NCBI RefSeq assembly: GCF_020866905.1
Contig: NZ_JAIVCC010000017.1
Coordinates: 173,761 to 237,760, forward strand
Direction: 5' to 3'
DNA length: 64,000 bases
From: Salinimicrobium sediminilitoris
GTDB lineage: Bacteria > Bacteroidota > Bacteroidia > Flavobacteriales > Flavobacteriaceae
Shown: positions 29,128-58,472 of the stretch, piece by piece
Layout: each line of letters starts with the position of its first letter
Position numbering within the stretch: position 1 is the first letter of the stretch
Translations under genes and position numbers: made by a program
The notes under the pieces: model-generated
Told to the model about the DNA's origin: nothing
Databases searched by the model: none
The model's input: only the letters and a program-made list of their open reading frames with translations

Positions 29128-32100
29128 TTACATATCCCTGTAGAGTTCCAGTCTTTCCCACTTGCTTTCCACTTCATCCTGGGCTTGCTTTAAAAGGCTT
29201 GCACCAATTTCGGCATTCTCTTTAGCCACTCGTGTAAAGCGGGTTTCATTATACATAAACTCTTTAAGGGGAGCCTGCGGAGGTTTCGAATCAAGTTTAA
29301 AACGCTTGCCTTTGTCTTTGGAAGGATCAAACCTAAAGAGCGGCCAATAACCGGTCTCCACAGCCTTCTCCTGTTGTCTTGGTCCATGCTTAAGGTCATA
29401 TCCGTGTTCTCCACAGTGTGAGTAAGCAATAATAATTGAAGGCCCGGGATAAGCCGCAGCTTCTTCAATAGCTTTAAGAGTTTGCATATCTTTGGCACCA
29501 ATGGCCACCTGGGCGACATAGACGTTCTGGTAAGAAACTGCCTGTAGCGCCAGACTCTTCTTAGACGTTCTTTTGCCTGAAACCGCGAACTTGGCACTGG
29601 CTCCCAGTGGGGTGGCCTTAGACATTTGTCCACCGGTATTGGAATAGACTTCGGTATCCATCACCAGGATATTGATGTCTTCTCCCGATGCCAGAACATG
29701 ATCGACGCCGCCGTAGCCTATATCATAAGCCCAGCCGTCACCACCCAGAATCCAAACCGCTTTTTTGCGCAGGTATTCTGCAAGCTCATTCAGTTTAAGA
29801 GCTTCAGGAGTACCAACGGTGGAAAGAATGTTTTTCAACTCGTCAATGTCGGCGTGTTTTTGCTTTTTCTGAACCTCATTTGTTTCCGGATTATTCAGGA
29901 TAGCGTTTACAAGTTCAGAACCAATCACCGGCTCCAGTTCCTTCAAAAGGTCAACTGCTATTTCCTGCTTTTTAGTAAGCGCCAGTCTCATTCCCAGACC
30001 AAATTCTGCGTTGTCTTCGAACAGGGAGTTAGCCCATGCCGGACCTCTGCCGAACTCATTCTTCTTATAAGGCGTGGTTGGAAGGTTACCACCGTAGATA
30101 GACGAACATCCTGTGGCATTTGCGATCATAATGCTGTCGCCGTAAAGCTGGGTCAACATCTTGATATACGGAGTTTCCCCACATCCCGAACATGCGCCCG
30201 AAAATTCGAACAAAGGCTCAAGGAACTGTGATCCTTTTACATTGGTGATCTGTAGCTCTGTACGATCATAGTATGGAAGCTGGGTGAAATAATCCCAGTT
30301 CTTGTTTTCGGCTTCAGCAACATCCAGTTTACTGCGCATGTTGATCGCCTTGAAGTTATCCACTTCCTTGCTTTGTGCAGGACATACCGCCACACAAAGA
30401 TCACAACCTGTACAATCTTCAGGAGAGACCTGGAGGATGTAAGAATCAGTTCCGGAGAAAGGTCTTCCTTTAGCAGGAACAGTGGTAAGGCTTGCAGGTG
30501 CGTCGGCAAGATCTGTAGTAGGAACTACTTTTGCACGAATTGCGGCGTGCGGACAAATAGCCACACATTTGTTACACTGGGTACAAAGATCTGCTCCATC
30601 CCAAACCGGCACAAAATCGGCAATACCGCGTTTCTCATACTGAGTGGTACCCGTAGGGAAAGTGCCATCAACAGGGAATGCGCTCACGGGAAGTTCATCT
30701 CCCTGTCCCGCCAGGATCTTACCTAGCACATCTTTCACAAATGGATCGGCCTCGCCGGTCATCATTGGCTTAAGATGCTTGTTGCTGGTAATTTGCTTCG
30801 GATAATTCACTTTTTGGAGGTATTCCAAAGATTTATCAACCGCATTGAAGTTCATTTGCACGATCTTTTCTCCTTTGTGCGAGTAAGATTTTACAATAGC
30901 ATCTTTGATCTTTTGAATGGCTTCATCTTCAGGAAGAACCCCGGATATCGCAAAGAAACAGGTTTGAAGAACGGTGTTAGTTCGTTTTCCAAGCTTGGCT
31001 TCAAAAGCCACTTTTGTAGCATCTACAACATAGAATTTAAGTTCCTTCTCTACTATATCTTCCTGCATTTTCTTCGGAAGCATATCCCAAACCTCTTCAT
31101 TGGAGAAAGGAGCATTCAGAAGGAAAGTACCGCCTTTTTTTATCTTTTTCAGCAGGTCATATTTCTCAACAAAATTGAACTGGTGACAAGCAATAAAGTC
31201 GGCTGTATTGATCAGATAACTGGAGAAAATTGGCTGCGGACCAAAGCGCAGGTGGGAAACAGTTTGTGAACCTGCCTTTTTAGAGTCATAAACAAAATAA
31301 CCCTGTACATAATTATCTGTAGTCTCCCCAATGATCTTGATGGAGTTTTTATTAGCACCTACAGTACCATCAGATCCCAAACCATAGAACATACAGTTAA
31401 AGGTATTCTTCTTAGTCTTGAAAACCGGATTGTAAAGCAAGCTGCTAAAGGAAACATCGTCATTAATACCTATTGTAAAATGGTTTTTTGGCTGAGGCTT
31501 CTGTAGCTCATCAAAGATCCCTTTTACCATGGCAGGATTAAATTCTTTTGAAGAAAGCCCATAACGGCCGGCTATGATCTGCGGAATATTTCCACCTGTC
31601 TCGGCAAAAGCAGTCACTACATCCAGATAAAGCGGATCTCCGGTACTTCCGGGCTCTTTGGTCCTGTCAAGAACAGCTATCTTTTTCACTGTTTTTGGCA
31701 CCCTTGCAATAAAGTCTTTGATTGAGAAGGGCCTGTAAAGACGAACGATCAAAACTCCCACTTTTTCATCAGAATTCAGAAGCGTGTCAACGGTTTCCCT
31801 TACGGCACCTTCTCCCGATCCCATGATGACCACTACCCTTTCAGCTTCAGGATGTCCTTCGTAGTCGAAAAGATTGTACCTGCGGCCGGTGTGCATGTAA
31901 AACTCATCCATGATCTCCTGCACGATCTCCGGCACCCTTTGATAATAAAGGTTGGCAGCTTCCCGTGCCTGGAAGAAAACATCGGGGTTTTGAGAAGTAC
32001 CGCGAATTACCGGACTATCGGGATCTAAAGAGCGTTTTTTGTGCTCCATGATCTTATCTTCGGGCATCATTGCCTTAATGATCTCATCCGGAATGCCATC

Positions 32101-32655
32101 GATTTTAGATATTTCATGAGAGGTTCTGAAACCGTCAAAAATATTCAGAAAAGGAACTCTTGATCTTAAAGTAGCTACTTGTGAAATAAGAGCGAAATCC
32201 TGAGCTTCCTGTACTGAGCCGCCAAAGAGCATAGAAAAGCCCGTTTGCCGGGCTGCCATAACATCTGAATGATCACCGAAAATTGAAAGTGCATGAGTTG
32301 CAATTGTACGCGCAGCGACATGTATCACATTGGGCAGCAATTCCCCTGCTATCTTATACATGTTCGGGATCATTAAAAGTAATCCCTGCGAGGCCGTAAA
32401 CGTTGTAGTAAGCGCTCCGGCTTGAAGTGAGCCATGAACAGCACCCGCAGCGCCACCTTCACTCTGCATTTCTACGATCTTTGGAACATTATTCCAAATA
32501 TTCTTTTTGCCTTTTGAACTATACACATCCACATGCTCTCCCATAGGAGAAGCCGGGGTGATAGGATAAATGGCACATACTTCATTCGTTTTATGTGCTA
32601 CACGGGCCACAGCTTCGTTGGCATCACAAATGAGCTTTGGAAAGTTTTTCACCAT
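29128..32655 (-). CDS. nifJ: Pyruvate:ferredoxin (flavodoxin) oxidoreductase
   Basis: Oxidises pyruvate with CoA to acetyl-CoA and CO2, reducing ferredoxin in the cytosol. Started at the ATG at 32655 it has 1175 residues, the usual length of the one-chain homodimeric enzyme. Domains in order are the pyruvate-binding N-terminus (AIYPITPASPMGEH), the gamma-type domain in the middle, two [4Fe-4S] motifs (CTQCNKCVAICP and CTGCDLCVAVCP, near residues 690-760), and the C-terminal thiamine diphosphate domain (GDGWAYDIGYGGVDH with SNTGGQ). Extra cluster cysteines are present (SGACSGCGE, NATGCSS). The longer frame to 32700 overlaps the ferredoxin gene and is not needed. It follows that ferredoxin by 26 bases, forming an operon. 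The enzyme is oxygen-sensitive in most hosts, so activity at low oxygen is likely. Confidence 0.97.
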   Translation of the reverse strand: MVKNFPKLICDANEAVARVAHKTNEVCAIYPITPASPMGEHVDVYSSKGKKNIWNNVPKIVEMQSEGGAAGAVHGSLQAGALTTTFTASQGLLLMIPNMYKIAGELLPNVIHVAARTIATHALSIFGDHSDVMAARQTGFSMLFGGSVQEAQDFALISQVATLRSRVPFLNIFDGFRTSHEISKIDGIPDEIIKAMMPEDKIMEHKKRSLDPDSPVIRGTSQNPDVFFQAREAANLYYQRVPEIVQEIMDEFYMHTGRRYNLFDYEGHPEAERVVVIMGSGEGAVRETVDTLLNSDEKVGVLIVRLYRPFSIKDFIARVPKTVKKIAVLDRTKEPGSTGDPLYLDVVTAFAETGGNIPQIIAGRYGLSSKEFNPAMVKGIFDELQKPQPKNHFTIGINDDVSFSSLLYNPVFKTKKNTFNCMFYGLGSDGTVGANKNSIKIIGETTDNYVQGYFVYDSKKAGSQTVSHLRFGPQPIFSSYLINTADFIACHQFNFVEKYDLLKKIKKGGTFLLNAPFSNEEVWDMLPKKMQEDIVEKELKFYVVDATKVAFEAKLGKRTNTVLQTCFFAISGVLPEDEAIQKIKDAIVKSYSHKGEKIVQMNFNAVDKSLEYLQKVNYPKQITSNKHLKPMMTGEADPFVKDVLGKILAGQGDELPVSAFPVDGTFPTGTTQYEKRGIADFVPVWDGADLCTQCNKCVAICPHAAIRAKVVPTTDLADAPASLTTVPAKGRPFSGTDSYILQVSPEDCTGCDLCVAVCPAQSKEVDNFKAINMRSKLDVAEAENKNWDYFTQLPYYDRTELQITNVKGSQFLEPLFEFSGACSGCGETPYIKMLTQLYGDSIMIANATGCSSIYGGNLPTTPYKKNEFGRGPAWANSLFEDNAEFGLGMRLALTKKQEIAVDLLKELEPVIGSELVNAILNNPETNEVQKKQKHADIDELKNILSTVGTPEALKLNELAEYLRKKAVWILGGDGWAYDIGYGGVDHVLASGEDINILVMDTEVYSNTGGQMSKATPLGASAKFAVSGKRTSKKSLALQAVSYQNVYVAQVAIGAKDMQTLKAIEEAAAYPGPSIIIAYSHCGEHGYDLKHGPRQQEKAVETGYWPLFRFDPSKDKGKRFKLDSKPPQAPLKEFMYNETRFTRVAKENAEIGASLLKQAQDEVESKWERLELYRDM

Positions 32656-32681
32656 GATATTTCCGGTTGTTGGTTCACTTA

Positions 32682-33032
32682 TTAAGCTCCATGAAGCCAC
32701 ACTTTTTTCTCTAACAATTGCTCTTCACTCTCTTCCATGTCTTCCCTCGGGTGAATACAGTCTACAGGACACACAGAAACACACTGCGGATTATCATGGA
32801 AGCCTTTACACTCGGTACATTTATCGGCTACAATAAAGTAGAATTCATCAGATAATGCTTCCTGTTGTTCATTTGCATCCATTTCTTCACCACGGGGAGT
32901 GGTTACAATTCCTTCAAGTGCAGTTTCATCTGCCAATGACCATTCCTGATCTGGTTCGTAAATAGCATTATTCGGACATTCCGAAATACATGCGTCGCAG
33001 TTGATACATTCGTCTGTTATAAAAAGAGCCAT
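32682..33032 (-). CDS. Ferredoxin, 2[4Fe-4S] type
   Basis: A 116-residue electron carrier, probably the acceptor of the oxidoreductase encoded next. The first cluster motif is CINCDACISECP (Cys9, 12, 15, 19). The second, CTECKGFHDNPQCVSVCP, has the long C-x8-C spacing of Alvin-type (YfhL-like) ferredoxins, which have very low redox potential. A region of about 45 residues with acidic character separates the two motifs, longer than in the shortest ferredoxins. Translation from the ATG at 33032 removes twelve weak upstream codons and gives the usual MALFITDEC start. It is the first gene of the leftward operon, with its promoter at 33069-33112. Confidence 0.93.
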   Translation of the reverse strand: MALFITDECINCDACISECPNNAIYEPDQEWSLADETALEGIVTTPRGEEMDANEQQEALSDEFYFIVADKCTECKGFHDNPQCVSVCPVDCIHPREDMEESEEQLLEKKVWLHGA

Positions 33033-33068
33033 AACTAAAGGTTTTAAATTATTACTTGATTTTCCCAA

Positions 33069-33112
33069 TAAAAGTATTGTGGCTTTACCTGCTCAAACAT
33101 GACGGTCGTCAT
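33069..33112 (-). promoter_or_regulatory. Promoter of the ferredoxin-nifJ operon with operator
   Basis: On the minus strand ATGACG-AC-CGTCAT (33112 to 33099), one base, TTTG (33097-33094), 17 bases, TACTTTTA (33076-33069), matching TAnnTTTG at five of six fixed bases. A start near 33064 leaves a leader of about 32 bases and puts the dyad centre at about -41.5. The dyad has perfect six-base arms. The geometry mirrors the KOR promoter on the other strand exactly. Confidence 0.7.
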
Positions 33113-33124
33113 ATTTTATTTAAC

Positions 33125-33139
33125 TAAGAATTATTCTTA
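33125..33139. promoter_or_regulatory. Central dyad between the two divergent promoters
   Basis: TAAGAA-TTA-TTCTTA is a perfect six-base-arm palindrome near the middle of the divergent promoter region, between the two TGA-N6-TCA operators. It is AT-rich and unlike them in sequence. It could bind a second regulator, or be chance in AT-rich DNA. Confidence 0.35.
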
Positions 33140-33161
33140 ATAAGCTCATTTTAAAAACAAT

Positions 33162-33205
33162 ATGACCTGCATCATATTTCCTGCTGCCGAATAAAAATAC
33201 ATTTG
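33162..33205 (+). promoter_or_regulatory. Promoter of the KOR-complex I block with operator
   Basis: ATGA-CCTGCA-TCAT (33162-33175), one base, TTTC (33177-33180), 17 bases, then a perfect TACATTTG -7 element (33198-33205). A start near 33210 leaves a leader of about 48 bases, and the dyad centre lies near -41.5. The arms can be extended to ATATGA/TCATAT. The arrangement is the mirror image of the ferredoxin promoter 100 bases away. Confidence 0.72.
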
Positions 33206-33257: not shown

Positions 33258-35114
33258 ATGATAGCAGCAGAAAAACCCAGATCCGAGGCTGAAGCTCTGG
33301 AGGCCGTAGTGATCCGCTTTGTGGGAGATTCCGGTGACGGAATGCAGCTCACGGGAACTCAATTTTCTGATACCTCGGCCATGTTTGGCAATGACGTGGC
33401 AACTTTCCCTAATTACCCTTCTGAAATACGGGCTCCCCAGGGTAGTCTCTATGGGGTTTCAGGATTCCAGGTCCACATTGGTAGTGTGGAGATCAGCACA
33501 CCGGGTGACAATGTAGACCTGCTGGTAGCGATGAACCCTGCAGGCCTTAAGACAAACCTTTATGCGGTAAAACCGGGGCAGACGATTATTGTAGATGCAG
33601 ATTCCTTTACAAAAAAGAACCTGGAGAAGGCGCAGTACGCCACTAATCCTCTGGAAGACGGAAGTCTCTCCAATTACAGGGTGATCCAGGTGCCAATGTC
33701 TTCTTTGACCAAAGAAGCGTTAAAAAACATTGAAGGTCTTGATCAAAAGATGATCACCCGCAGCAAAAATATGTTTGCTCTCGGAATGGTTTACTGGCTT
33801 TACAGCCGTTCTCCTGAACATACTATAGAATTCTTCAACAAGAAGTTTAAAACAAAACCTCATCTTATTGAGGCAAATACAAAGGTTCTCAATGCCGGTT
33901 ATTTCTATGCTGAAACTATTGAGCTAATCCCTAACTCCTATAGTGTATCGCCTGCAAAGATGCAGAGTGGCACATACAGGATCATTATGGGAAATACAGC
34001 CACAGCATGGGGATTTCTGGCCGCAGCTGAAAAATCGGGGCTGGAGCTATTTTTAGGATCCTATCCAATTACTCCCGCAACCGATATCCTGCATGAGCTG
34101 GTAAAGCATAAGCATTTCGGTGTAAAAGCCTTCCAGGCCGAAGATGAGATCGCCGGGATCACCTCGGCAATCGGTGCATCTTTCGCCGGAGATCTGGCTA
34201 TCACCACCACCTCAGGTCCCGGACTTGCTCTTAAAGGAGAAGCTTTAGGCCTTGCAATGATGATCGAGTTACCGCTGGTTGTAGTAAACGTGCAGCGTGG
34301 AGGACCATCAACAGGTTTACCAACTAAAACCGAACAATCTGACCTGCTACAAGCGATGTACGGCCGTAACGGGGAAAGCCCGGTGATCGTGATCGCCGCA
34401 AGTACTCCGGCGAACTGTTTTACTTACGCATATCAGGCAGCCAAACTGGCCCTGGAGCATATGACTCCGGTGGTACTATTGACCGACGGTTATATCGCTA
34501 ACGGTTCAGCTCCATGGAGGATCAGAAAAGTAGAAGATCTGCCCGAGATTAAAACCAGGAAAGTTACTGAGGTAAAAGAAAACTGGCATCCCTACAACAG
34601 GGACGAAATAACCTTAGCCAGGGATTGGGCTGTTCCCGGCACCCCCGAACTTGAACATCGCGTTGGAGGCCTTGAAAAAGATCAAAAGACCGGAAACGTT
34701 TCCCACGTGCCCGAAAACCATGAAGTAATGACTCAGGTAAGGGCCGAAAAAGTGAAAAGGGTACAGAGTTTCATTCCTGATCTCATTCCCGAATTTGCTT
34801 CAGAAGGTGATCTGCTTATCGTAGGATGGGGCGGCACATATGGTTCTCTTCACACCGCTGCCAAACAACTTTATGACGAAGGCTCCAGAAATATTGGATT
34901 CGCTCATTTCAACTATATCAATCCGCTTCCGCGAAACACGGAGGAAGTGTTCAAAAAGTTCAAAAAGATAGTTGTGTGTGAATTGAACAGTGGTCAATTC
35001 GCCAGCATTCTCAGGATGAACTTTAGCAGGGAATTCCTTCAGTATAATAAGGTCCAGGGACTTCCATTTGCCAATACCGAGCTTATAGAGAAATTCAAAC
35101 AAATTGTAGAATAA
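33258..35114 (+). CDS. korA: 2-oxoacid:ferredoxin oxidoreductase, gamma-alpha fusion subunit
   Basis: With the beta subunit encoded next it oxidises a 2-oxoacid, most likely 2-oxoglutarate, to its CoA ester and reduces ferredoxin. The 618-residue chain joins a gamma domain (about 18-200, IRFVGDSGDGMQLTG) to an alpha domain (about 235-618, LFLGSYPITPATDILHEL and TTSGPGLALKGEALG). This fusion is the normal form in Bacteroidota and actinobacteria. The start at ATG 33258 follows the dyad promoter. The beta gene begins one base after the stop. Together they offer a ferredoxin-linked bypass of 2-oxoglutarate dehydrogenase in the TCA cycle. Substrate is inferred from family resemblance, not proven by residues. 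Confidence 0.93.
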   Translation: MIAAEKPRSEAEALEAVVIRFVGDSGDGMQLTGTQFSDTSAMFGNDVATFPNYPSEIRAPQGSLYGVSGFQVHIGSVEISTPGDNVDLLVAMNPAGLKTNLYAVKPGQTIIVDADSFTKKNLEKAQYATNPLEDGSLSNYRVIQVPMSSLTKEALKNIEGLDQKMITRSKNMFALGMVYWLYSRSPEHTIEFFNKKFKTKPHLIEANTKVLNAGYFYAETIELIPNSYSVSPAKMQSGTYRIIMGNTATAWGFLAAAEKSGLELFLGSYPITPATDILHELVKHKHFGVKAFQAEDEIAGITSAIGASFAGDLAITTTSGPGLALKGEALGLAMMIELPLVVVNVQRGGPSTGLPTKTEQSDLLQAMYGRNGESPVIVIAASTPANCFTYAYQAAKLALEHMTPVVLLTDGYIANGSAPWRIRKVEDLPEIKTRKVTEVKENWHPYNRDEITLARDWAVPGTPELEHRVGGLEKDQKTGNVSHVPENHEVMTQVRAEKVKRVQSFIPDLIPEFASEGDLLIVGWGGTYGSLHTAAKQLYDEGSRNIGFAHFNYINPLPRNTEEVFKKFKKIVVCELNSGQFASILRMNFSREFLQYNKVQGLPFANTELIEKFKQIVE

Positions 35115-35115
35115 C

Positions 35116-36129
35116 ATGGAAACAGTAACTGCAAATAAGTACACTTATAAGGATTTTGCAAATGACCAGGAGGTAAGATGGTGTCCCGGCTGTGACGACT
35201 ATGTTATTCTAAGGTCTGTACAAAAAGCCCTGCCCGAAATGGGTGTCAAAAAGGAGGATGTGGTGTTCATTTCAGGAATTGGCTGCTCATCCCGCTTCCC
35301 CTATTACATGGGAACTTACGGGATGCACGGAATTCACGGAAGGGCTCCGGCAATTGCTTCGGGAGTGAAATTAGCCAATCCAAACCTCAGCGTTTGGGTG
35401 ATCACCGGTGATGGTGACAGCATGGCTATTGGTGGAAATCATTTCATCCACGTCTTGAGAAGGAATATTGACCTCAACATCATCCTGTTCAACAACGAGA
35501 TCTACGGGTTAACAAAAGGACAATTCTCCCCTACCTCGCTGGTAGGTCAAAAAACCAAATCTTCTCCTTTTGGAAACACTCAGCCACCATTCTCCCCGGG
35601 AGAACTGGCCATAGGTGCACAGGCAAGGTTCTTTGCCCGGATTGGTGGAAATGCTCCAAAAGAGATGACCGATATCTTCATTGAAGCTGAAAAGTTTAAG
35701 GGCACTTCTTTAGTAGAGGTCCTGCAAAACTGCGTGATCTTCAATGACGGGTGTTACGTTAAGTACACAGACAAGTCAGTAAGAGAAGATAAGCAGTTGT
35801 TCGTGGAGCATGGAAGGCCAATGATCTTCGGAAAAGAGCGCAACAAAGGACTAGTGCTAAATAAGCTGAAGCTGGAGGTAGTAACTATTGGAGAAAATGG
35901 CGTGACTGAAGAAGATATTCTTGTACACGACGCCAAAGAAAAAGATCCTACCATGCACCAAATGCTGGTGAGATTGGAATATCCTTTAGTAACAGGAATT
36001 ATAAGGAGTTATGACGATGTTACCCTGGAAGAGAGAGAAGATGCGCTCACAGCGCAGATAAAGTCAAAGTCAAAATTTAAACAGACAGATGACCTTTTCT
36101 TTTCGGGAGAAACCTATGAAGTAAAGTAG
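35116..36129 (+). CDS. korB: 2-oxoacid:ferredoxin oxidoreductase, beta subunit
   Basis: Binds thiamine diphosphate and one [4Fe-4S] cluster. The 337-residue protein has the thiamine motif VITGDGDSMAIGGNH (about residues 95-109) and NNEIYGLTKGQ, plus cluster cysteines in WCPGC (Cys18 and 21), GIGCSS and a later GCYVKYT. HGIHGRAPAIASG is typical of KorB. It starts one base after korA, so they are translated as a pair. A gap of 74 bases with its own dyad promoter separates it from nuoA, the first complex I gene, and the order kor then nuo suggests that the reduced ferredoxin made here is used there. Confidence 0.93.
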   Translation: METVTANKYTYKDFANDQEVRWCPGCDDYVILRSVQKALPEMGVKKEDVVFISGIGCSSRFPYYMGTYGMHGIHGRAPAIASGVKLANPNLSVWVITGDGDSMAIGGNHFIHVLRRNIDLNIILFNNEIYGLTKGQFSPTSLVGQKTKSSPFGNTQPPFSPGELAIGAQARFFARIGGNAPKEMTDIFIEAEKFKGTSLVEVLQNCVIFNDGCYVKYTDKSVREDKQLFVEHGRPMIFGKERNKGLVLNKLKLEVVTIGENGVTEEDILVHDAKEKDPTMHQMLVRLEYPLVTGIIRSYDDVTLEEREDALTAQIKSKSKFKQTDDLFFSGETYEVK

Positions 36130-36132
36130 CGT

Positions 36133-36180
36133 AGAACTGATCTTCATCAGTTCTTACCTGCAACTGAAACGTTAATTTTA
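36133..36180 (+). promoter_or_regulatory. Promoter of the nuo operon with operator dyad
   Basis: CTGA-TCTTCA-TCAG (36137-36150) inside a longer perfect repeat AGAACTGAT-CTTC-ATCAGTTCT (36133-36154), then TCTT at the -33 place (36152-36155), 17 bases, and TAATTTTA (36173-36180), five of six fixed -7 positions. The spacing equals that of the KOR, ferredoxin, porin and YceI promoters. The same repeat could fold in the korB-nuoA transcript as a hairpin. A second small stem GTTAAT/ATTAAC is at 36171-36185. Confidence 0.5.
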
Positions 36181-36203: not shown

Positions 36204-36554
36204 ATGGGTTCAGAAGCAATCATCGTTTTTCTTATCGCGGGGATCGTATTGGTCGCCGGCGCTAACTTTCTCTCCAACCTCATCTCTCCAAAATCTGACA
36301 ACCCAGCCAAGAGGGAACCCTATGAAAGTGGAATGACCACTATAGGTCCCACCTGGGTTCAGTTTAAAGTAGGCTACTACCTCTTTGCCATTCTCTTTCT
36401 CATTTTTGATGTGGAAGTTGCCTTTTTGGTGCCGTGGGCAGTAGTATTTGGAGAAATGGGAAGTATTGCCCTGGTAGAGATCCTCATCTTCCTCTTCATC
36501 CTGGGATTGGGATTAGCATATGCATGGAAAAAAGGAGCATTAAAATGGGAATAG
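36204..36554 (+). CDS. nuoA: Complex I subunit A
   Basis: A small membrane subunit of respiratory complex I that helps build the quinone chamber. The 116-residue protein has three hydrophobic segments, at about 5-25, 62-82 and 88-108, and the family motif KREPYESG in the first loop, followed by RVGYYLF-like [19 protein letters not shown]. It is the first gene of an eleven-gene nuo operon without nuoE, nuoF or nuoG. Its stop overlaps the start of nuoB by ten bases, so translation of the two is coupled. Confidence 0.96.
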
Positions 36555-48489: not shown

Positions 48490-48495
48490 ACTTCG

Positions 48496-48570
48496 TCGGG
48501 GTGGCAGGATTCGAACCTGCGGCCTCCTGCTCCCAAAGCAGGCGCGATAACCGGGCTACGCTACACCCCG
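48496..48570 (-). tRNA. tRNA-Pro (anticodon UGG)
   Basis: The reverse complement folds as a 75-base cloverleaf. The acceptor stem CGGGGTG pairs with CACCCCG, with discriminator A. The anticodon stem CCTGC/GCAGG holds the loop TTTGGGA, giving UGG. The T arm has GGTTCGAATCC. CCA is not encoded. It reads CCN proline codons, complementing the GGG tRNA near the left end. Confidence 0.95.
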
Positions 48571-57890: not shown

Positions 57891-58472
57891 TTACGAACCC
57901 GAAGTGATCTGGCTGCGAATACGACTAAGGGTTTCCCGTGTCACCCCAAGATAAGAAGCGATCATATGAAGCGGCACCCGCTGAATAACATCGGGGAATT
58001 CCTTCAGCATTTTTTGATAACGCTCCTCGGCCGTTGTACTAAAGGTGCCCATCAGTCGCCGCTGGGTGGCGATAAGGTTATTCTGAATGAGGATACGGAA
58101 ATAACGTTCAAAGGCAGGAACTTCTTTCAGCAGTTGATCCCAGGACTCTTTGGTAATGAGCAGCAATTCACTATCCTCCAAAGCTTCAATATTATATTCT
58201 GAAGGTTCTCCCGTTAAAAAACTGTAGAGATCCCCACTCCACCAGCCCTGCATGGCAAACTGCAAAATGTGCTCACTTCCCTTTTCATCAATTGTATAGC
58301 TCCTTAGAAGACCTTTTTCGACAAAAGTGGTATAAATACAAGGTTCCCCCTCTTCAAATAAAAAACGTCTTTTTCGTAGTTTCTTCGGAAGGAACAGCGT
58401 TTTGGCATATTCAAATTCCTCCTCACTAATTGAGATAGTTTCATTGACTTTTTGCTGCAGAAAATCGAACAT
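57891..58472 (-). CDS. Crp/Fnr-family transcription regulator
   Basis: A 193-residue regulator. The N-terminal two thirds form a cyclic-nucleotide-binding-like beta-roll (FLFEEGEPCIYTTFVEKGLL to EPSEYNIEALEDSELLLI). A dimerisation helix and a C-terminal winged helix-turn-helix follow (IASYLGVTRETLSRIRSQI, about 172-190). The recognition helix TRETLSRIR keeps R-E-x3-R as in Crp, residues that read TGTGA or TGA half-sites. There is a single cysteine, so no Fnr-type iron-sulfur cluster. The effector is unknown. It stands directly upstream of the YceI operon, whose promoter has a perfect TGTGA-N6-TCACA site, which makes it a plausible regulator of that operon and of the dyad promoters of the PFOR and KOR/nuo block (inference). 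Confidence 0.9.
   Translation of the reverse strand: MFDFLQQKVNETISISEEEFEYAKTLFLPKKLRKRRFLFEEGEPCIYTTFVEKGLLRSYTIDEKGSEHILQFAMQGWWSGDLYSFLTGEPSEYNIEALEDSELLLITKESWDQLLKEVPAFERYFRILIQNNLIATQRRLMGTFSTTAEERYQKMLKEFPDVIQRVPLHMIASYLGVTRETLSRIRSQITSGS

Follow-up and report, generated by a model that had tools for sequence, protein, structure and literature searches.

Operator dyads at a predicted class II position in the divergent ferredoxin-nifJ and korAB promoters of Salinimicrobium sediminilitoris, and a receiver-Crp protein as candidate regulator

The analysed stretch of Salinimicrobium sediminilitoris DNA (64,000 nucleotides, hereafter the window) harbours two sets of oxidoreductase genes facing away from each other. 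On the minus strand, a ferredoxin-like 2[4Fe-4S] protein, named from its cysteine motifs (32682..33032, ATG at 33032), is encoded next to nifJ for pyruvate:ferredoxin oxidoreductase (29128..32700; TIGR02176, 1743 bits). The plus strand carries korA and korB for the alpha (33258..35114; TIGR03710, above cut-off) and beta subunits (35116..36129; TIGR02177, 243 bits and below the cut-off of 261.9) of a 2-oxoacid:acceptor oxidoreductase, followed by nuoA (36204..36554; PF00507) as first gene of an NADH dehydrogenase run. The closest KorA in genome_contigs, with 99% identity, belongs to Salinimicrobium sp. TH3. Two proline tRNA genes (182-256 and 48495-48570, anticodons ggg and tgg) are also present in the window.

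Between the two ATGs, positions 33069-33205 hold one promoter for each direction. The ferredoxin-nifJ promoter (minus strand) consists of the operator dyad ATGACGACCGTCAT (33112-33099), a TTTG as -33 element (33097-33094) and the -7 box TACTTTTA (33076-33069), and the korAB promoter (plus strand) of the dyad ATGACCTGCATCAT (33162-33175), a TTTC (33177-33180) and the box TACATTTG (33198-33205). On both strands, direct reading and a pattern search yield the same order of a 14-base dyad, 1 base, TTTG or TTTC, 17 bases and a TAnnTTT(G/A) box, i.e., a TGA-N6-TCA dyad placed 22 bases (counted from TCAT) upstream of a TAnnTTTG-type box, as the sequence-only reading had stated. The predicted transcription starts at 33064 (minus) and 33210 (plus) lie 32 and 48 bases before the ATGs at 33032 and 33258. 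In Flavobacterium psychrophilum, TAnnTTTG occupies -12 to -5 (PMC9723704, in excerpt); given this value and the fixed gap, both dyads are predicted to be centred at -41.5.

A third operator, CTGATCTTCATCAG (36137..36150, plus strand), was found by the genome scan between korB and nuoA, at the same gap from a -7 box TAATTTTA (36173..36180, predicted start 36185), which would bring the NADH dehydrogenase genes under this control as well. An exact site is present in 26 of the 67 relatives' loci in which nuoA was found by tblastn.

The suspicion that identical spacing on both strands is hard to explain by chance proved justified. The spaced pattern matches twice in the 64-kb window, whereas 100 dinucleotide shuffles gave no match. 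A genome scan for a -7 box combined with a TGAY-N4-RTCA dyad, with all gaps between 13 and 33 allowed (21 in total), yields 41 pairs, compared with 5 for the reversed pattern; 26 of the 41 have one and the same gap, 23 from TCA (22 from TCAT), and the other 15 are spread over 11 of the 20 remaining gaps. The T at -35 (the last base of TCAT), which is outside the search pattern, is retained in 24 of these 26 exact-gap sites. Totals over 100 Flavobacteriaceae genomes amount to 1504 exact-gap sites versus 55 matches of the reversed pattern, and a class-wide scan read by eye detected the site in 169 of 197 Bacteroidia genomes. Despite the degenerate -7 box, a chance origin of the shared spacing in an AT-rich genome can be discarded with near certainty, being excluded by the shuffle and gap counts, the totals over the 100 genomes and the conservation of the site before kor genes. 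The -33 element fared less well: TTTG or TTTC is present in both promoters, but is weak among the 26 exact-gap sites of the genome, as may be expected of promoters leaning on an activator.

The same spaced element recurs in other Flavobacteriaceae. For the kor genes, the best 80 of 233 loci (L021-L100) were compared, with L084 left out for too little upstream sequence. In 75 of the resulting 79 relatives the exact kor site is present, and in 43 of the 79 an exact site also faces ferredoxin-nifJ; on the latter side, 19 further matches are one base shorter than the standard gap. The exact kor site is absent from L051, L070, L090 and L098, the last three of which still keep the dyad core. The designation as mirror image needs qualification: the arrangement is one of two separate sites for two divergent genes, as is evident from kor-side (75/79) and two-sided (43/79) conservation in this set. 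Likewise, ATGA-N6-TCAT describes the dyads of both promoters but is too narrow as full consensus, since GTGA-N6-TCAT precedes kor in Lutibacter and others and CTGA-N6-TCAG precedes nuoA.

Besides ferredoxin-nifJ, korAB and nuoA in the window, exact sites precede a number of genes elsewhere in the genome: those for universal stress proteins (Usp; L101, L102, L112 and L126, assigned by Pfam, and presumably also L140), CcoNO, a radical SAM protein which we take to be HemN, a NapC/NrfH-type cytochrome, hemerythrin, formate-tetrahydrofolate ligase, malic enzyme, citrate synthase, a Rrf2-type regulator, a ferric-reductase-like protein and an Asp/Glu racemase. One of the Usp genes with a site is followed by genes for ScdA/RIC and NorB. 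Two more sites with imperfect boxes are located before a heavy-metal P-type ATPase gene, presumably ccoI, and upstream of a molybdopterin reductase cluster. Downstream of the exact sites L132 and L133, no gene that would fit was found. The exact site L128 (G000:C12:365912-365954) lies between enolase-like and citrate-synthase-like genes and faces the latter. A protein of 599 residues lacking a Pfam match (L106:5185-7055) is associated with the dyad CTGATCTAAATCAT, which the standard gap separates from CATCTTTG. Collectively, the predicted targets look like an FNR-type regulon, and low oxygen as signal would fit them; oxygen limitation raises cbb3 oxidase and heme synthesis in F. psychrophilum (PMC9723704, in excerpt).

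That an activator of the Crp/Fnr type acts from the class II position of both promoters, the core of the sequence-only reading, is strongly supported by the fixed spacing, in this genome and in relatives, and by site numbers that follow two Crp/Fnr-type proteins (see below), but the protein it named is not borne out as regulator. This Crp-type protein (57891..58472, minus strand) is encoded in the same window as the sites and possesses a cNMP domain together with a partial match to HTH_Crp_2 below cut-off; in the class-wide sample, read by eye, the genes of two relatives of this protein (G096, G174) are closely followed by a site. Its presence is nevertheless unrelated to site number in 100 Flavobacteriaceae genomes (median 14 with, 12 without; p = 0.32, relatedness ignored), and none of the 20 loci of its relatives examined has an exact site. 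Individual genomes agree: G200, of the same genus, has 24 sites yet a weak match (E 1.1e-7), G244 has 31 sites and no match, while G228 and G263 lack sites despite strong matches. On these grounds of co-occurrence and gene order the protein was set aside, and binding of both sites by it appears highly unlikely; the regulator is very probably a different member of the Crp/Fnr superfamily.

Nine cNMP-domain matches are present in the window's genome, two of which represent fusions of a receiver domain to cNMP and HTH_Crp_2 domains (REC-Crp). The two REC-Crp genes, at C10:689.7 kb and C11:454.8 kb, are not part of the window, and both products match PF00027 and PF13545 above cut-off, the cNMP-type and HTH_Crp domains that define the Crp/Fnr superfamily. 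Among the 60 matches listed of 282, no PDB chain covers both the receiver and the Crp part of REC-Crp. A close Fnr was not found in this genome, the best match being REC-Crp itself (2.6e-28, from residue 31 on). The N-terminal cysteine cluster characteristic of FNR is absent from all 9 Crp-type proteins of the genome; it is not conserved in REC-Crp, which has 0-2 cysteines behind the receiver.

Many Flavobacteriaceae possess a cysteine-bearing Fnr, which allows site numbers to be set against both proteins in the 100 genomes (presence defined by E up to 1e-30 for REC-Crp and up to 1e-60 for Fnr). Genomes with neither protein (n = 14) have a median of 1 site (range 0-2), those with Fnr only (n = 34) of 10 (2-31), those with REC-Crp only (n = 25) of 18 (6-37) and those with both (n = 27) of 25 (9-53); each regulator-bearing group differs from the neither-group with p below 1e-6, in tests which ignore relatedness and use E-value cut-offs set after the tables had been seen. 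Eight of the 14 genomes with neither protein are under 3 Mb, and the six of 3.0-3.5 Mb have 0, 0, 0, 1, 1 and 2 sites. G211 and G231, both scored as Fnr-negative, display a partial match in which the N-terminal part is missing; their site numbers are 1 and 2. The co-occurrence of the sites with Fnr and REC-Crp suggests that the promoters may be activated by a bound Crp/Fnr protein.

Gene order points in the same direction. An exact site is present in 29 of 30 REC-Crp loci listed, in 28 of them directly behind the REC-Crp gene, as compared to 0/20 loci for relatives of the protein encoded at 57891-58472 (Fisher p = 4e-13). The larger loci read have the order kinase, REC-Crp, site and Usp-like gene, with the cysteine-bearing Fnr coming next in four of them (L179-L182). 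Each of the cysteines 4, 7, 29, 53, 59 and 106 is conserved in eight or more of the nine Fnr proteins read. The E. coli Fnr model matches the Flavobacteriaceae Fnr with 98.8 bits (below the cut-off of 228), residues 3-223 aligning to 19-241, so that cysteines 4, 7 and 106 would fall on C20, C23 and C122, known ligands in E. coli Fnr; the third N-terminal ligand is without clear counterpart.

One could also imagine that the sites are read, with or without REC-Crp taking part, by another Crp paralogue, e.g., the type represented by L103, which has the recognition helix VETVIR and is encoded beside a gene that we take to be haemoglobin-like (no family was assigned to it by Pfam or NCBIfam). This helix resembles those of REC-Crp and Fnr, and a site lies behind the gene in the window's genome (L103:5579) and in 6 of 20 loci of this type (L254-L273), from which it follows that a further Crp protein may share the sites. 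As main regulator the L103 type was rejected for want of any association with site number: it occurs in 24 of the 100 genomes, medians are 14 sites with and 12.5 without it (p = 0.99, relatedness ignored), and G262 has the gene yet only 2 sites. We regard the involvement of such a paralogue as improbable.

With REC-Crp as the preferred candidate, the adjacent sensor kinase deserves attention. In 28 of 32 REC-Crp loci read at length, an adjacent kinase was recognised by pattern; L183 has a visible kinase that the pattern missed, L102 (second REC-Crp of the window's genome) and L188 have none adjoining, and the remaining locus is L215. The two kinases scanned have the architecture PAS-HisKA-HATPase, and the best PDB match of the PAS domain is FixL (8.7e-13), followed by the multi-sensor kinase 10jx and by DosP. 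In FixL, a histidine of this domain binds heme and an arginine contacts the heme ligand. The former aligns with a histidine in 28 of 28 kinases and the latter with an arginine in 26 of 28. The kinase type combines the features that define FixL, namely a PAS domain with the heme-ligand histidine, HisKA and HATPase. Among 24 PAS_9 matches in the window's genome, 23 are alignable, and the neighbour of REC-Crp is the sole kinase with both residues; none of the other 22 aligned PAS domains has the FixL-type histidine. From these residues, the kinase would be predicted to bind heme and to be inhibited by oxygen.

REC-Crp may, however, be the activator and yet obey another signal, i.e., nitric oxide, redox state or a different PAS ligand in place of oxygen on heme. 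Genes for NorB, ScdA/RIC, hemerythrin and NapC/NrfH-type proteins behind or near the sites would agree with this, and the ligand is not fixed by residue conservation alone. Against it speak the top PDB matches found with the PAS domain, among them FixL and DosP, there called oxygen sensors, the cbb3 oxidase and HemN-like genes among the targets, and the above-mentioned response of such functions to oxygen limitation in F. psychrophilum. A signal other than oxygen is conceivable, though rather unlikely.

The preferred reading, which we consider probable, is that both dyads act as class II activator sites, centred at -41.5 in promoters of the TAnnTTTG type, and belong to one regulon of about 26 exact-gap sites, read most likely by the REC-Crp pair under the FixL-like kinase. 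The kinase neighbouring the first REC-Crp, whose PAS domain keeps the heme histidine and the aligned arginine of FixL, would act as sensor. Loss of oxygen from the heme would lead it to phosphorylate REC-Crp, which would then bind NTGAY-N4-RTCAT (N mostly A or C), recruit RNA polymerase and turn on the genes for ferredoxin-nifJ, korAB, nuo, cbb3 oxidase, Usp and nitrogen-oxide metabolism. In related genomes, the cysteine-bearing Fnr may serve the same sites, alone or with REC-Crp. In short, the best reading is that a FixL-like kinase drives a fusion resembling FixJ and FixK, and that this fusion serves an Fnr-type regulon.

FixJ is a receiver fused to a LuxR-type HTH, different from a Crp output. 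REC-Crp, with its receiver fused to cNMP and HTH_Crp_2, lacks such a HTH and is also distinct from FixK, a stand-alone Crp protein (62.3 bits with the NCBIfam FixK model versus a cut-off of 300). FNR of E. coli and its relatives likewise belongs to the Crp/Fnr superfamily and has a TGA-N6-TCA core (half-site TTGAT), class II placement and similar targets, but REC-Crp differs from it by the receiver and by lacking a conserved N-terminal cysteine cluster. The cysteine-bearing Fnr of Flavobacteriaceae (225 aa, e.g., L177) shares the sites and has a similar helix (TESAIR versus the TES/TIR type); it has six conserved cysteines and no receiver, was not found in the window's genome, and its gene adjoins ccoI-like and cbb3 genes.

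Judging from excerpts of PMC9104804 and PMC8534201, the nearest described system is the FixLJ-FixK2 cascade of Bradyrhizobium. Both systems have a FixL-kind heme-PAS kinase (heme being predicted here), a receiver domain and a Crp-type DNA-binding protein, as well as a 14-base palindrome before cbb3 oxidase genes. In Bradyrhizobium, FixJ switches on the gene of a separate FixK2, which binds TTGA/C-N6-T/GCAA (PMC9104804, PMC8534201), whereas receiver and Crp are united here in one protein, and the sites are NTGAY-N4-RTCAT. In searches of open-access PMC papers by particular words, no listed title or abstract beginning pointed to this regulon or to a receiver-Crp system in Bacteroidota, which is weak evidence of absence. 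A different reading is given for Crp/Fnr homologues of a Flavobacteriales MAG, located near MalR and predicted to function in carbon sensing (PMC8510549, in excerpt).

On balance, we lean towards the view that a condensed FixL-FixJ-FixK system, i.e., a heme-PAS kinase plus a receiver-Crp fusion directly reading the Fnr operator, came to stand beside the cysteine-bearing Fnr of Flavobacteriaceae and took its place in some lineages, leaving the operators and their placement at -41.5 unchanged. If so, oxygen sensing would have shifted from the activator itself to a kinase, with no rewiring of the regulon. For Flavobacteriaceae, this provides a low-oxygen regulon that is open to testing, with the promoter layout given exactly and both the operator and the candidate regulators named. 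The 100 genomes also offer a natural exchange of sensors, the operators being kept in 25 genomes with REC-Crp and without Fnr, in 34 with Fnr and without REC-Crp and in 27 with both, which allows one set of target genes to be compared between two types of sensor.
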